A stretch of 64,000 bases of DNA from an uncultured Treponema sp. GTDB lineage: Bacteria; Spirochaetota; Spirochaetia; Treponematales; Treponemataceae. How positions within the stretch are numbered: position 1 is the first letter of the stretch; each line of letters begins with the position of its first letter. A model generated the notes under the pieces. That model saw only the letters and a program-made list of their open reading frames with translations. It was not told where the DNA came from and did no database searches. Both the position numbers and the translations under genes were made by a program. Of this stretch, positions 1,619 to 46,490 are shown one piece after another. The stretch is taken from contig CAMCRZ010000009.1 of the NCBI GenBank assembly GCA_945877425.1, positions 1-64,000 on the forward strand, read 5' to 3'.

Positions 1619-1744
1619 AACGTTGATCTATTTTGCACTTGATGCACACAAAGGTGGCGGAAAATAATTTTGTAGCAAAGTGATGTTATTTTTTGTCTTA
1701 AACTTTTTATTTGCTTGAAAGGCTTGTCACAAGGAAAAAACAGG

Positions 1745-1809
1745 CGGATTTGTTCGCATCTAACGATGCTCACGAAAAAAACGAAGAACGTTAGTTTTGA
1801 GCAAATCCG
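1745..1809. repeat. Long imperfect hairpin in gene-free stretch
   Basis: The stretch 1619-1870 has no supported gene. It contains a long hairpin with outer arms CGGATTTG (1745-1752) and CAAATCCG (1802-1809) and inner arms CTAACG (1760-1765) and CGTTAG (1789-1794). There is no clear T-run after it, so it is not an obvious terminator. A similar gene-free hairpin is at 53823-53877. Its function is unknown. Confidence 0.5.
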
Positions 1810-1825
1810 ATTGTTTATCTTTGCA

Positions 1826-1863
1826 TTAAACTTTCCATTCGGTCATTTGCGTTATGATTGTTT
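1826..1863 (+). repeat. 38-bp direct repeat flanking vapBC, left copy
   Basis: This is identical over 38 bases to 2534-2571. The right copy is the last 12 codons plus stop of the XRE regulator gene (protein tail TIITQMTEWKV). The left copy therefore is a displaced tail of such a gene, and the vapBC pair lies exactly between the two copies. Confidence 0.85.
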
Positions 1864-1870
1864 CTGGTTG

Positions 1871-2254
1871 TTACCTATTTTCAAGAGAAAGTCCTTTTAT
1901 AAAGGAAAAATGTTTATCAGCTGTAACTATTGTCAGATTGTATGCCATTGCACATGCAGCAAGCCATATATCATTTTCTGGAATTGGATGTCCGTCTTGT
2001 TTTAATTGGGCTTTTATTTTTGCATAAAAAGGAGTTACAAAGGAATCCGGCTTTATTTCTTCAAGTTCGCTGCAAAAACCCCTGTAAACATCAGCATTCT
2101 CTGATTTTCGGGAAGAACATTCTGCACCAAAAAGCAGTTCTCCAAGTGTTATAGAAGAAAAATACAGATTTTCCTCTTCGAAAATATCATCAAGAGCATC
2201 TTCATCTTTGATATAGCGGATAATTACATTTGTATCAACAAGTTTACCATTCAC
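1871..2254 (-). CDS. vapC: VapC-family PIN-domain ribonuclease toxin
   Basis: The 127-residue PIN-domain protein starts at GTG 2254, overlapping the upstream antitoxin gene by 11 bases, which is the usual coupling in vapBC operons. Acidic residues expected for the Mg-dependent nuclease site are present: KLVDTNVII near the N-terminus, a glutamate in ITLGELLFG, and the C-terminal ENDIWLAACA plus IVTADKHF. VapC toxins cut RNA, often initiator tRNA, and are neutralised by the partner. The gene is intact. Neighbouring direct repeats suggest it moves as a cassette. Confidence 0.85.
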   Translation of the reverse strand: MNGKLVDTNVIIRYIKDEDALDDIFEEENLYFSSITLGELLFGAECSSRKSENADVYRGFCSELEEIKPDSFVTPFYAKIKAQLKQDGHPIPENDIWLAACAMAYNLTIVTADKHFSFIKGLSLENR

Positions 2255-2462
2255 TTTTATCCACCTTGCGACCTTCTGTTACGGCTTTTTCTACCAGTTC
2301 GGAATCTGATTTACTGACCTTGCCTACAAATTTTTTTAAGTTCCGCTTGGGAGTATTGAATTCGTCAAGAAAAGTGATGATTACGCGCTGGTCTTTTTTT
2401 ACTGCAACATTGCCTTCTGTTATGTAATTTTGTCCGTCAAAATATCCTTTTACAGAAACCAT
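2244..2462 (-). CDS. Antitoxin partner of the PIN toxin
   Basis: This 72-residue protein lies just upstream of and overlaps vapC. It begins MVSVKGYFDGQNYITEG and ends with a charged tail (EGRKVDKSEW), a layout typical of small antitoxins with an N-terminal DNA-binding or dimer region and a C-terminal toxin-binding tail. A good ribosome binding site (AGGAGG) precedes ATG 2462. I recognise the arrangement rather than the exact antitoxin family. Autoregulation of the operon is expected from family knowledge; no operator was identified. Confidence 0.75.
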   Translation of the reverse strand: MVSVKGYFDGQNYITEGNVAVKKDQRVIITFLDEFNTPKRNLKKFVGKVSKSDSELVEKAVTEGRKVDKSEW

Positions 2463-2533
2463 AGAATCACCTCCTACTTTTTTGTTTAGTATAGCATACT
2501 TTTATAGAAAAATCAGTGTTTTTTGTTTGCGCC

Positions 2534-2571
2534 TTAAACTTTCCATTCGGTCATTTGCGTTATGATTGTTT
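2534..2571 (+). repeat. 38-bp direct repeat flanking vapBC, right copy (inside XRE gene 3' end)
   Basis: Identical to 1826-1863; see that entry. It includes the stop codon of the XRE regulator gene on the minus strand. Confidence 0.85.
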
Positions 2572-2872
2572 TTACGAGTTGTTTCTGATTTTCGCCCAGG
2601 GTGTCGAGTTTTGCAATCAGGTCTGAATATTCTTTGTATTTTTTGATGTCGATGCCTTCGTTTTTTAATGTCTGGCTTTGTCCTGTTACAAGGTATTCGA
2701 CGGAGACGTTAAGGACTTTTGCGATTCGCAGGGCTGTTTCGGCACTGGGGCAGTTATTATCTTTTTTACCTTTTGAAATATTTGACATACTGAATTTTGC
2801 TTCAGTTGCAAGAGTTTTTTTATTAATTCCTTTTTTGTCGAGTTCAAATTCGACTCTTTCCCAAAAATTCAT
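2534..2872 (-). CDS. XRE-family helix-turn-helix regulator
   Basis: The 112-residue protein has an N-terminal HTH (about residues 5-62): LDKKGINKKTLATEAKFSMSN, a GKKDNNCPSAETALRIAKVL turn, and VSVEYLVTG at the end of the Cro/CI fold. A helical C-terminal region (residues 70-112) probably mediates dimerisation. It is transcribed away from the type III mod gene, with a shared 138-bp divergent region. Control of the restriction-modification operon is a reasonable inference, similar to C-proteins, but is not shown. Its last codons are duplicated at 1826-1863. Confidence 0.85.
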   Translation of the reverse strand: MNFWERVEFELDKKGINKKTLATEAKFSMSNISKGKKDNNCPSAETALRIAKVLNVSVEYLVTGQSQTLKNEGIDIKKYKEYSDLIAKLDTLGENQKQLVKTIITQMTEWKV

Positions 2873-3010: not shown

Positions 3011-4558
3011 ATGAACGAAATCAAACAATCACTTATTGAAGAAATCAACAGGCGCGTGCAGGATAAGATTCTGGAACCGTCAAATGCAAATCTTCTTATA
3101 AAACTTATTCAAAATGCGGAATCGAAAGACGAGGCGATAAACATTGCAGCGTTGGGAACGACATACAAGCGTACGGGGCTTCACTTTGACAAACGGCTTG
3201 AAAAAATGTCCGACAGTATTCGGTATTTCCGCAAAAACGAAAAACTTTCTTTTTATACTGACGATGCAAAACCTGTAAACAAGCTGATTATCGGCGACAA
3301 CTACGAGGCGCTTCAAAACCTTTTGATTCAGTACAGGGGTGCAATCGATGTAATTTACATTGACCCGCCTTACGGAAAAGACAGCATGGGCGAATTTGCC
3401 AGGACGAACTATGAAAATGCCATTACGAGGGACAATCTTCTTTCCATGCTTTACCCGCGTCTGATTCTTGCAAAACAGCTTTTGTCTGACGAAGGCGTGA
3501 TTTTTTGCAGCATTGATGATAAAAATCACGCTTATGTAAAATGTTTGTTTGATGAGGTGTTTGGGGAGGAAAATTCGCTTTCAGTTATTGCATGGGAGAA
3601 AAGAACTAAATGTCAAAATACAGATACTGCAAAGTTCATGCTTCAGCCTAAAGTGGAATATATTTTATGTTATAAAAATTTTAATCACCGAGCAGAATTC
3701 CGATGTCATGTAGTTGGTGAAAAGTTATATCCTGAAAAGGATGCTTATGGAATCTTTCGTTATGAAGAAATTGGGCAAATGAGCAAGAATGGAGTTCGTG
3801 GTCGTGCTAGTATGATTTTTGATATCTTGGGCGTTTACCCGAATGAAGGAAACCAATGGAAATTAGGGAAAGATACAATACTTGAATATTCTACTCGTAA
3901 TGATGGAAAAGATTTACTCTTAATTAACGAAAGACCTTTTAGAAAAATTCGTCCTGAAGATGAGGTTGTTGAAAATTATAAACCATTTTGGGGAATGTAT
4001 GGTGCAGAGCAATACGGTACAGCTGAAACTGCAAAGTCTGAGTTAGATAAAATTTTAGGAACTAAAGAACATGATTTCAACACAGTAAAACCTGTTGAAC
4101 TAATTGAAGATTTAATTTTTCATGCATGTAAAGAGAATTCTATTGTATTGGATTTTTTTGCAGGTAGTGGAACAACTGGTCAATCAACAATGGAATATGT
4201 TAAAGATTATCACAATAATATAACTTACATTCTATGCACAAATAATGAAAAAACTGAAAAGTGCCCCAACGGCATTGCTTACGATGTTACGGCAAAGCGG
4301 CTCAAGCGAATCATGACTGGCGAATGTTATGACGGAACAAAAGACTTTCCGTGGATAAAAGACAACAAGCCTTATGGCGGAAATCTTGATGTTTACGAAA
4401 TCGGTTCGGTTGCAAATTTTGAAACGGCAGAAGGAAAAAGTGCTTTTGATGTAATCGACGAGACACTTTACGGAAAACAAAAGTTTATGACGGTAAAAGA
4501 AAAAATCGACTGGGTATGTCAGAATTTTGAAAAAACACAAAAAAAGGTGGAAGAATAA
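3011..4558 (+). CDS. mod: Type III restriction-modification DNA methyltransferase (Mod)
   Basis: The 515-residue protein is a beta-class N4/N6 adenine methyltransferase. The catalytic DPPY motif (DVIYIDPPYGKDS) is near residue 118 and precedes the SAM-binding motif LDFFAGSGTTG near residue 384, the order typical of type III Mod subunits. The region between them should hold the target recognition domain. That middle tract, about 3580-4260, is visibly richer in A/T and uses different codons from the flanks, suggesting replacement by recombination. The res gene follows after one base. Mod methylates one strand of an asymmetric site and is required for restriction. The open frame is complete. Confidence 0.92.
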   Translation: MNEIKQSLIEEINRRVQDKILEPSNANLLIKLIQNAESKDEAINIAALGTTYKRTGLHFDKRLEKMSDSIRYFRKNEKLSFYTDDAKPVNKLIIGDNYEALQNLLIQYRGAIDVIYIDPPYGKDSMGEFARTNYENAITRDNLLSMLYPRLILAKQLLSDEGVIFCSIDDKNHAYVKCLFDEVFGEENSLSVIAWEKRTKCQNTDTAKFMLQPKVEYILCYKNFNHRAEFRCHVVGEKLYPEKDAYGIFRYEEIGQMSKNGVRGRASMIFDILGVYPNEGNQWKLGKDTILEYSTRNDGKDLLLINERPFRKIRPEDEVVENYKPFWGMYGAEQYGTAETAKSELDKILGTKEHDFNTVKPVELIEDLIFHACKENSIVLDFFAGSGTTGQSTMEYVKDYHNNITYILCTNNEKTEKCPNGIAYDVTAKRLKRIMTGECYDGTKDFPWIKDNKPYGGNLDVYEIGSVANFETAEGKSAFDVIDETLYGKQKFMTVKEKIDWVCQNFEKTQKKVEE

Positions 4559-4559
4559 A

Positions 4560-6584
4560 ATGCTCCAGGAAGCAAAAGATTTACAGAAAAATGCCGTAAC
4601 AAAACTTACAAAAATCCTTATGAATGTGACAAGCAGCAAAAAAGAAATAACTTTTAAAGCTCCCACAGGTTCCGGCAAAACTTACATGATGGCAGATTTT
4701 ATGAACCGTGTAATTTGTGCAGACCGAAACGCTGTTTTTATAGTTTCGACACTTTCAAAAAGCAATCTTGCAGCCCAAAATTTTAATTCATTTAAGGAAC
4801 TTTCGGAAAACGGAACTTTTGCAGACATAAATCCGTTTTTAATCAATTCAGATTCAAGCGGAGAAGGAAGCCTTTTTATTCCTCTGGAATACAACGTTTA
4901 CGTTCTGCCCCGCGACTTGTACAAAGATTCAAGCAAGCTTAAAAAAGAAGGAACTTTTGTCAATTTTCTTTCTTCGCTTACAGGCGACACTTTTATGAAA
5001 AATCCGCAAAAAAAAATCTACCTTATAAAAGATGAATGTCATATTGCAACAAGCAACCTTGATGAGTTAAAAGAGTATTTTTGTGCCGTCATAAATTTTT
5101 CTGCCACGCCAAAACTTTCAAGAAAACAGGAACCAGATGTAGAAATTTCAAATGCAGAAGCCGAAAATGCAAAACTCATAAAAAAAGTTGAAGCAGGAAA
5201 TGAAAATGACAGTCTTGAGTGCGCTCTAATGAAATTTGAAAAAATCCGCAGCGACTATATAAATCAGCTTGATGTAAATCCTTGCTTTATAATTCAGATT
5301 TCAAACAAGGAAAAAGCTGAAGAGGAACTTAAAAATACGATAATGCCTGCCCTGCAAAATCATCAGGAACTGAAATGGGTTTATATAAACGACAAAGGCG
5401 GCGAAACAAACGATTCTGGCTTAAAAAAACTTCCGATTTTTAAATGGAAAGATTACATGAAAGGAAAAGCCTCTTCTGTTTCTGTCATCATTTTTAAAAT
5501 GGTCATTTCGGAAGGCTGGGACATTCCAAGGGCGTGCATGCTTTATCAGATTCGAGATTCAAAAAGCAAGCAACTGGACGAACAGGTTATGGGACGCGTA
5601 AGGAGAAATCCTCGGCTGCTTGATTTTGAAAGCTTGAGTGAAGAAGCAAAACAACTTGCCTGTACTGCATGGATTTGGGGAATTCTTCCAAAAGAGGAAA
5701 ATCTTCCGCGACAGGTAAGGCTTTGCACAGATTATAAAATTGAAGAAAATTTCCGTATAACGCCTGTAAAAATTCTCTCTCCCAAAAAAACAAAAAATCC
5801 TGATATGAAAAATTTTCTGGAGCGCTTAAAAGATGACAGTCTGACTCATCCTTCGATTTTTGAAAGTTACAGGAATTTGCAAAAACAGGGAAATGACATT
5901 CAATCTCTTTGCTACGAGTATTCGGACAGCTATAAAAAATGGACTGTTTTTGCTGAACATTTGGGCGAAATAAATTCTTCTTATGAAAAATATATTTGCG
6001 ATTACGAAAAAAGCATGGTCACTTGCGATGAAGTTTGTTTTCCGCTTGAAAGTTGCTTTGTGGAAAATCAAAACAGTCTGACGCTCGACGACTGGATTTG
6101 GTACAGAAAAGATTTTTGCACTGATTTTTCATTTGACAGCGAAGCCGAAAAAAAATGGGCGGAAGTGCTCAAGGACATTCGTTCATCTTCAATCGGAACT
6201 TGCACAAAAAAGCAGTCTGAACTTTTTGAAACGAGCCGCTTTTTGTGGGGCAAAAACTTTCCGCTGAATTCCCAGATAAAATTTGAATACTATCTTGACG
6301 GCATTCATTCTTCTTATCCAGATTTTGTGATGAAAGACAAAAACGGAAAAATCCACATTTTTGAAGTAAAGAGCGTTAATAAATCTTCTTCCCAAAATAT
6401 CGACGAAGAAGAATACGAAAAAAAAGTGAACGCAATCAAGGACTGCTACAAGGAAGCTTCAAAAAAAACAGGACACATTTTTTACCTTCCTGTGCTGGAC
6501 AAAGCACAATGGCAGATTACACGCTTTTCCGACGGCAAGGGCGAGAACATTACAAAAGATGAATTTGTGGAATCGCTAAAGTAA
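4560..6584 (+). CDS. res: Type III restriction enzyme subunit (Res), helicase-nuclease
   Basis: I place the start at ATG 4560 (MLQEAKDLQKNA), preceded by AGGTGG, one base after the mod stop; the track start at 4527 lies inside mod. The 674-residue protein has a superfamily 2 helicase core: Walker A KAPTGSGKT, a DECH box in LIKDECH, SATPKLS, EGWDIPRACML and QVMGRVRRNP. The C-terminus has a PD-(D/E)xK nuclease site, with YPDFVMKDKNG then IFEVKS. In type III systems Res travels along DNA and cuts after two enzymes meet. All key motifs are present, so the system appears functional. Downstream DNA is repeat family B. Confidence 0.92.
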   Translation: MLQEAKDLQKNAVTKLTKILMNVTSSKKEITFKAPTGSGKTYMMADFMNRVICADRNAVFIVSTLSKSNLAAQNFNSFKELSENGTFADINPFLINSDSSGEGSLFIPLEYNVYVLPRDLYKDSSKLKKEGTFVNFLSSLTGDTFMKNPQKKIYLIKDECHIATSNLDELKEYFCAVINFSATPKLSRKQEPDVEISNAEAENAKLIKKVEAGNENDSLECALMKFEKIRSDYINQLDVNPCFIIQISNKEKAEEELKNTIMPALQNHQELKWVYINDKGGETNDSGLKKLPIFKWKDYMKGKASSVSVIIFKMVISEGWDIPRACMLYQIRDSKSKQLDEQVMGRVRRNPRLLDFESLSEEAKQLACTAWIWGILPKEENLPRQVRLCTDYKIEENFRITPVKILSPKKTKNPDMKNFLERLKDDSLTHPSIFESYRNLQKQGNDIQSLCYEYSDSYKKWTVFAEHLGEINSSYEKYICDYEKSMVTCDEVCFPLESCFVENQNSLTLDDWIWYRKDFCTDFSFDSEAEKKWAEVLKDIRSSSIGTCTKKQSELFETSRFLWGKNFPLNSQIKFEYYLDGIHSSYPDFVMKDKNGKIHIFEVKSVNKSSSQNIDEEEYEKKVNAIKDCYKEASKKTGHIFYLPVLDKAQWQITRFSDGKGENITKDEFVESLK

Positions 6585-6717: not shown

Positions 6718-6845
6718 TGAAAAAAATATTGTATAATCTACAGGAACGCAAAAAAACAACCAAGTCAAGTGTGATTTTTTTTTCGTATGGAAAATTGTGA
6801 CTTTTTATGATAAAGTAGTAGGGAGATTTCAGTTTGGAGGTTGTT

Positions 6846-7055
6846 ATGTCTTATGATACAATGGTTGAAAAAATAAAAACCGTTCCTCAAGAATGTCTTG
6901 CTGATATTGAAAATTATATTCAGTTTGTTTTGTATCGATATAATCAGAATTCAAAAACAGAAAATAAAACAAATCTATCAAAATATTTTGGTTCCGTAAA
7001 TTTTCAAAAAGATGGCCTTTCAATTCAAAAGGAAATGAGAAATGAATGGAACTGA
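6846..7055 (+). CDS. Small antitoxin-like protein (partner of broken PIN toxin)
   Basis: The start is set at ATG 6846 (MSYDTMVEKIKTVPQ), with TTGGAGG upstream, rather than at the track start 6834. The 69-residue protein begins with a short helical region resembling DUF2281-type antitoxins (VPQECLADIENYIQFVLYRY) and ends in a polar tail (QKEMRNEWN). The following PIN gene overlaps by 14 bases in the usual toxin-antitoxin manner but is disrupted, so this antitoxin appears to have outlived its toxin. It may still act as a regulator or cross-neutralise other PIN toxins in the window; that is inference. Confidence 0.65.
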   Translation: MSYDTMVEKIKTVPQECLADIENYIQFVLYRYNQNSKTENKTNLSKYFGSVNFQKDGLSIQKEMRNEWN

Positions 7056-7414
7056 TTTTTTAGCGGACACAAATGCATTGATGTATCTACTTAATGTAAT
7101 CCATGTATGAGTCCATTTTTGCAGAATAAGTTGGCATTTTCTGTTATATCGGAACTGGAACTCTTGTCTTTCTCTGGAATAACATCAGAAGAAGAGAATA
7201 CATAAAATCATTTTTGCTTAATTGCAATGAAATTTCTCTTACAGATGAAATAAAAGAAAAAACGATAGAAATTCGAAAAAAATATAAAATAAAACTCCCA
7301 GATGCTATTGTTGCCGCTTCTGCAATTGTAAATAACCTGCCACTTATTACAGCTGGCAAAGGATTTAATCAAATAGAAGAATTAAATTTAAAATTAATTG
7401 TTCCAGTTATGTAA
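7042..7414 (+). pseudogene. vapC-like PIN toxin, inactivated by two frameshifts
   Basis: The frame opened by ATG 7042 reads FLADTNALMYLLN, the PIN N-terminus, and stops at 7108. The next segment continues in another frame as NKLAFSVISELELLSFSG until a stop near 7204. The third segment, in the third frame, reads YIKSFLLNCNEISLTD and then KLPDAIVAASAIVNNLPLIT to 7414. Joined, these give one complete PIN domain of about 125 residues with its acidic residues. Two indels, near 7100-7110 and near 7198-7204, break it. The upstream antitoxin gene is intact. Sequencing error at both places is possible but less likely. Confidence 0.85.
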
Positions 7415-45676: not shown

Positions 45677-46353
45677 TGGAATACTTCAGTGCAGAAAATT
45701 TAACAAAGGAATTTGACTCGGCAAAAATCAGCGTAACTTTTTCTGTTAAGCAGAATACTTTTACTTCTATAGTTGGACCAAGCGGCAGCGGCAAGTCTAC
45801 AGTTTTAAGAATGATTGCAGGTCTTGAACAGTGCAACAATGGAAAAATTTTTCTTGACGGAAATGAAATTACAAATGTCAAACCTCAGGACAGACAGCTT
45901 GGAATGGTTTTTCAGAATGCATCACTTTTTATGAATATGAATGTTGAACAGAACATTGCTTACGGCTTAAAGTGCAAGGGCTTTAAAAAAAATGAAATCA
46001 GCGTTCTTGTAAAGGAATGGCTTTCTAAAGTTCAGATGGAAGGTTTTGAAAAACGCAGCTGTTCTTCATTAAGCGGCGGCGAATCCCAGCGGATTGCACT
46101 GGCACGGACTCTTATTATAAACCCAAAGCTTTTGCTTTTAGACGAACCGCTTAGCGCTTTGGATGCACCTTTACGAAAATCACTTGCGGCTCAAATAAGG
46201 AAGCTCCAGTTATCTCTCGGCATAACAGTTTTGATGGTCACTCACGATATAGAAGAAGCTAAATCAGTTTCGGACAAAATCATTCTGTTAAAGAAAGGTC
46301 AGATTTGCTGGACAGGAATTCCTTTAGATTTTAAGGACGACTTTTTAGTTTAA
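45676..46353 (+). CDS. thiQ: Thiamine ABC transporter ATPase
   Basis: The 225-residue ABC ATPase has Walker A VGPSGSGKSTVLRMI, Q-loop MVFQNASLFMN, signature SSLSGGESQRIALART, Walker B LLLLDEPLSALDAP and the switch histidine in VTHDIEEA. It energises thiBP. No terminator but repeat family A begins at its stop codon. Confidence 0.94.
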   Translation: MEYFSAENLTKEFDSAKISVTFSVKQNTFTSIVGPSGSGKSTVLRMIAGLEQCNNGKIFLDGNEITNVKPQDRQLGMVFQNASLFMNMNVEQNIAYGLKCKGFKKNEISVLVKEWLSKVQMEGFEKRSCSSLSGGESQRIALARTLIINPKLLLLDEPLSALDAPLRKSLAAQIRKLQLSLGITVLMVTHDIEEAKSVSDKIILLKKGQICWTGIPLDFKDDFLV

Positions 46354-46490
46354 AAGTTCCTTAAAATTGCAACCGGAGAAAGTTTCAACTTTAGAGGATT
46401 GCAATTACGTGCACGAAAGTGCACAATTCAATAAGACAGTTTTGCAAAAACTGTAAGTTAAAATAGACGCGCTATTTGTGCGGCTATTTT
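46353..46490 (+). repeat. Structured dispersed repeat, family A, copy 2
   Basis: Aligns with 1477-1618. Shared blocks are AAGTTCCTTAAAATT, AAAGTTTCAACTTT and TTCAATAAG. The stems are AATTGCAA/TTGCAATT, GTGCAC-GAAA-GTGCAC, ACAGTTTT-GCA-AAAACTGT and AAAATAG/CTATTTT. Compared with copy 1, paired bases change on both sides in the first three stems. It lies between convergent thiQ and the pseudouridine synthase gene and touches both stop codons. Confidence 0.78.

Follow-up and report, generated by a model that had tools for sequence, protein, structure and literature searches.

Insertion of a vapBC toxin-antitoxin (TA) cassette at the 3' end of an XRE gene, with duplication of the target and with the XRE gene kept intact, is well supported by sequence comparison for an uncultured gut Treponema sp. 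The window, by which we mean the whole stretch of 64,000 nucleotides that was analysed, comes from a draft assembly of 42 contigs that is 92% complete. The features that bear on the insertion are the following.

1735..1822, minus strand: E2, a palindromic dispersed repeat and the native 3' flank of the XRE gene, found directly behind the XRE tail in the empty-site relative G141 too
1826..1863, minus strand: left (distal) copy of the XRE tail, outside any gene and running on into the resident 3' flank, 38/38 identical to 2534-2571
1864..2533, minus strand: inserted cassette with vapBC, its promoter region and ribosome binding site (RBS), missing from the G141 empty site
1871..2254, minus strand: vapC, a tRNA(fMet)-endonuclease-like PIN-domain toxin of 127 aa (Pfam PIN, 4e-16; NCBIfam VapC; PDB 3tnd, 5e-11)
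2244..2462, minus strand: vapB, a putative antitoxin of 72 aa, assigned from its position and its conserved pairing with VapC; RBS GGAGGTG
2534..2571, minus strand: right (proximal) 38-bp copy, the final XRE codons and stop
2534..2872, minus strand: XRE/Cro-like regulator of 112 aa, the intact host gene (Pfam HTH_3; RstR-like)
3011..6584, plus strand: Type III restriction-modification (R-M) system, divergent from XRE (Pfam N6_N4_Mtase and ResIII; PADLOC MTase_III and REase_III)
3011-4558, plus strand: mod, part of the Type III R-M system
4527-6584, plus strand: res, part of the same system

The repeat that frames the cassette, TTAAACTTTCCATTCGGTCATTTGCGTTATGATTGTTT, was originally predicted as 38 identical bases at 1826-1863 and 2534-2571, with the last residues and stop of the XRE gene encoded in the right copy and the toxin-antitoxin pair enclosed between the two. 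This description was borne out in each respect. The copies agree at 38/38 positions, the right one holds the last 12 codons and the stop of the intact 112-aa XRE protein, and vapB, vapC and their promoter region lie between them. In the genome's own 2.4 Mb, a search with a 33-base core (up to 3 mismatches) found no third copy. The fragmented state of a 42-contig draft might lead one to suspect an assembly artefact, or the similarity might be put down to chance, and both are exceedingly improbable: about 3e-13 pairs of this length are expected by chance in 64 kb, misassembly is unlikely with a repeat shorter than usual reads, and a similar architecture is present in independent genomes.

Within the cassette, the gene for a PIN-domain toxin overlaps a small upstream antitoxin gene by 11 nt, the arrangement by which VapBC type II toxin-antitoxin systems are recognised, and the two are assigned here as a putative pair. 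VapC matches tRNA(fMet)-specific VapC toxins of known structure. No Pfam match was obtained for VapB, which accompanies VapC in 9 relatives (67-79% identity), and positions 1869-2479 of the window are homologous to vapBC of other species. Behind the R-M system, at 6834-7414, a VapB-like open reading frame is followed by a PIN-like C-terminal one (7214-7414), possibly a second, decayed VapBC pair.

The direction of the change can be read from Treponema sp. RGIG338, from dairy cattle colon, in which a genus-wide search with the XRE protein reached an empty-site homologue (G141:C11). There, the homologous XRE tail leads through the spacer directly into E2 without a cassette; in the window, spacer and E2 come after the left copy. 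Once the cassette and one repeat are taken out of the window, the two sequences align without gaps at 246/282 identical positions (XRE, 134/155; repeat, 36/38; flank and E2, 76/89). With the cassette left in, the alignment ends just behind the tail. The left copy and 1737-1825 align gaplessly to the native XRE 3' region of G141, and from this gapless empty-site alignment it follows that the left copy belongs to the resident flank and that vapBC is the insertion. The G141 XRE gene is 5'-truncated and adjoins a different R-M system, one that combines a C5 methylase and a BpuJI-like nuclease; the site is homologous to that of the window in a different neighbourhood, not a syntenic orthologue, and it is the single empty-site homologue found for this locus. 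A relative carrying an empty site with one 38-mer had been named as the check on the original prediction, and G141 provides it, with a 36/38 repeat and incomplete synteny. The claim that the cassette entered at the 3' end of the XRE gene, duplicating the tail and sparing the host gene, is upheld by this empty site.

As the two 38-mers are identical, the insertion is probably younger than the split from G141. Had it been as old, the non-coding copy should have gathered ~2.7 changes, and the probability of zero changes since the split is about 0.07. Homology to the XRE 3' region reaches somewhat beyond the perfect 38 bp, to ~27 nt past the stop in the right copy. Here the first 18-27 nt of the cassette resemble the native XRE 3' flank of G141 (for 27 nt, 0/5000 shuffles; 16/42,650 window positions score equally high). 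Because the right copy is followed by what resembles a native XRE flank, the incoming DNA may have carried an XRE 3' end. At the other edge of the cassette, 7 bp separate the vapC stop from the left copy. These junctions also bear on the possibility that XRE was duplicated in tandem and most of the second copy then deleted, with vapBC caught between. Such a history would give the observed order of gene, cassette and gene tail on one strand, yet it is very improbable, as it requires more steps, the distal copy begins exactly at 38 bp and retains its native flank, and no further remnant of a second XRE gene was found between the repeats.

Further copies of E2 (fold z -2.9) are scattered through the genus; in G020 and G038, MmeI-type genes seem to contain it within their reading frame, as though by in-frame insertion (L025, L026). 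A structured repeat of ~145 bp, E1, lies at 1473-1634 of the window with another copy at 46348-46441; it is dispersed across Treponema, with tandem copies in some genomes (L036, L047). Positions 1186-1542 hold a fragment of a winged-helix gene with a relative in L055, the homology stopping at the start of E1 as if truncated.

Tail duplications around small gene units were also found elsewhere in the genus. Most of the 9 VapC relatives examined, at 72-82% identity, are without a flanking repeat. An MmeI-type IIG gene in G036 is followed by vapBC, which is framed by 194-bp copies (94% identical) of the gene tail and the region after it. A downstream tail copy is present in 6/21 MmeI-type loci. 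The tails in G058 and G169 enclose a DUF2281-like antitoxin with a PemK/MazF-like toxin, and G120 has the same antitoxin next to a toxin gene cut short by the tail. The enclosed unit of G110 includes a Fic-family gene, and no TA pair was recognised in that of G153. A surface-protein gene in G038 shows a similar tail duplication, as does a radA-like gene in G101 (L085), where a perfect 33-bp tail copy (492-524 and 1847-1879) lies directly behind the XRE gene of a cassette, the two 3' flanks being homologous but diverged. The repeat measures 38 bp here and 33-194 bp in the parallels.

How unusual this is can be judged from a control set of 295 genes in 464 kb, of which one has a tail copy within 2.5 kb, namely the window's own XRE. 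Against the 0/294 of the others, the 6/21 of the MmeI-type loci gives a Fisher p of about 4e-8; some of the 21 were chosen with the duplication already known, and without two of them the count is 4/19 and p about 1e-5. In toxin-antitoxin searches, flanking direct repeats occurred at 7/33 loci vs 1/54 other loci (p 0.004), a count that includes direct repeats other than gene tails. None of 14 other XRE genes had a duplicated tail. The idea that tail duplication is general to methyltransferase genes was rejected with 0/30 PF01555 loci, for which the downstream stretches were shorter. Two further repeats were noted in passing. In G152 (L112), a module of vapBC, DUF2442 and DUF4160 lies between 120-bp, 87% direct repeats (601-717 and 2148-2267) that are intergenic and include no gene tail, and in G132 (L138) a 50-bp, 92% direct repeat (1233-1281 and 1922-1970) flanks a TA locus and has the look of a duplicated promoter region.

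For three of the MmeI cases, an empty locus is available for comparison in G195 (L185). From the distal tail onwards it runs colinear with them, at 88-91% over ~2.8-3.4 kb. The distal tails are 89-92% identical to G195 vs 75-84% to their own proximal tails. Being closer to G195 than to the proximal tail, the distal tail is thus the resident's, and the proximal tail and the TA pair arrived together. The pattern is as expected from homologous recombination at a gene end that both DNAs share. The original prediction had named recombination between two XRE copies as an alternative, and this may apply to the window; the MmeI parallels fit best as a variant of it in which an imported gene and TA pair came to lie before the resident tail. 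The same could be imagined for the window: a block of R-M system, XRE and vapBC would have recombined before a resident XRE tail, and the resident gene would have been lost except for its last 38 bp. The import of an MmeI allele with its TA pair before a retained resident tail is a precedent, and XRE divergently adjoins R-M systems both here and in G141. However, two alleles would have to match over 38 bp, yet the genome of the window (G000) and G141 differ by ~13% over the region, and the XRE gene shows no clear co-inheritance with the Type III system: its protein is 56% identical to the XRE that lies beside a 90% identical Mod in G180. We regard such a turnover as rather unlikely.

The original prediction had likened the locus to integrating elements at gene ends. 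This comparison found no support, since no integrase is found nearby and the repeat is part of the target rather than of the cassette; nor does the same 38-mer stand beside other cassettes, which carry the tails of other genes and repeats of different length. That the 38-mer is the att core of a mobile element, small or decayed, whose integrase was lost or acts in trans, is accordingly judged quite unlikely. This would account for the perfect 38-bp identity at the 3' end of a restored gene, an identity that would also suit a site-specific core and so counts against the reading favoured below, and the perfect 33-bp duplicate of the radA tail in G101 speaks for it as well. Against it, the contig that bears the cassette has no integrase, and the genome's two tyrosine recombinases, the only ones found, both lie on contig C1. 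The cassette has no terminal repeats, and other cassettes are flanked by other repeats of 46-194 bp, several of them imperfect. The 38-mer core (23 bp, 3 mismatches; 200 genus genomes) occurred only at this locus, at the empty site and as one weak 3-mismatch match in G102, and pattern scans for the repeat, genome-wide and in viruses, returned G141 plus unrelated, chance-like matches. An integron cassette was also considered after E1 gave weak Rfam matches to TD-1/TD-2, below the gathering score. It was dropped, as the genome (assembly 92% complete) yielded no match to the integron integrase model TIGR02249 above the cut-off. With a repeat of variable length that changes with the host gene, and with integrases absent near the locus, the process appears to be neither transposition nor site-specific integration.

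Instead, we favour, with a probability of roughly 0.6, acquisition anchored by homology with one illegitimate junction. The ancestor would have had a single XRE gene, its 3' end running straight into the E2 palindrome. DNA in which a vapBC pair followed the 3' end of a related XRE gene would have entered the cell and, as we infer, found its anchor in homology with the resident XRE 3' region. Its other side, just past the vapC stop, would have been joined to the XRE gene at a point 38 bp short of the gene's end, the donor sequence being hypothetical. The outcome would be a doubled 38-bp tail, with XRE intact on the proximal side and the distal copy left as a scar on the resident flank. With such repeats the cassette should be able to drop out and leave the empty site behind, a loss that addiction to vapBC would select against. 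Tails may persist in part since only insertions that preserve them keep the host gene working. Homology-facilitated illegitimate recombination is known from transformation experiments, and with one homologous anchor and one illegitimate junction it can duplicate a target of any length. What is known experimentally there is here deduced from sequence alone.

Among known systems, insertion of R-M genes with long, variable target duplication has been described (Nobusato 2000, as cited in PMC3874152, PMC1643837, PMC3031569 and PMC4978471). The present locus shares with it direct target copies that flank the insert (38/38 bp here), a single target copy in an empty relative (G141, not fully syntenic), the lack of a transposase and the association with R-M genes. 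It differs in its cargo, a TA pair where the published inserts are an R-M unit, here a neighbour; in its repeat, 38 bp vs about 100 bp in the review; and in its target, a gene 3' end, so that the gene stays intact. As the insert is vapBC and not an R-M unit, we file the locus as a variant of such insertions rather than a plain member. Integrative elements at gene 3' ends likewise duplicate the gene tail and restore the gene; here, however, an integrase is absent, the repeat is not common to other insertions and the cassette is <0.7 kb. Integron gene cassettes occur in Treponema (PMC3607928) and are small and movable in the same genus, whereas the repeats here are gene tails and not attC sites and the integron integrase is without a match over the cut-off. 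A literature search returned no report of a TA insertion with 3'-end duplication.

The entry of small TA pairs into chromosomes without a transposase or integrase is poorly explained, and this locus offers both the filled and the empty state together with a duplicated gene tail. Similar duplications at MmeI-type, surface-protein and radA genes suggest that recombination is a general way in, with the host gene still working afterwards; the prediction is that cassettes should sit between copies of the tail of their upstream gene. More tentatively, and with considerable doubt, cassettes of TA and regulator genes in gut Treponema may move between loci without a recombinase of their own, copies of a host gene's 3' end serving as portable homology on both sides; each insertion would duplicate the tail and spare the gene, and TA addiction would guard the repeat-flanked cassette from loss. 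If this is true, conserved gene tails, especially those of MmeI-type R-M genes, would serve as exchange sites.
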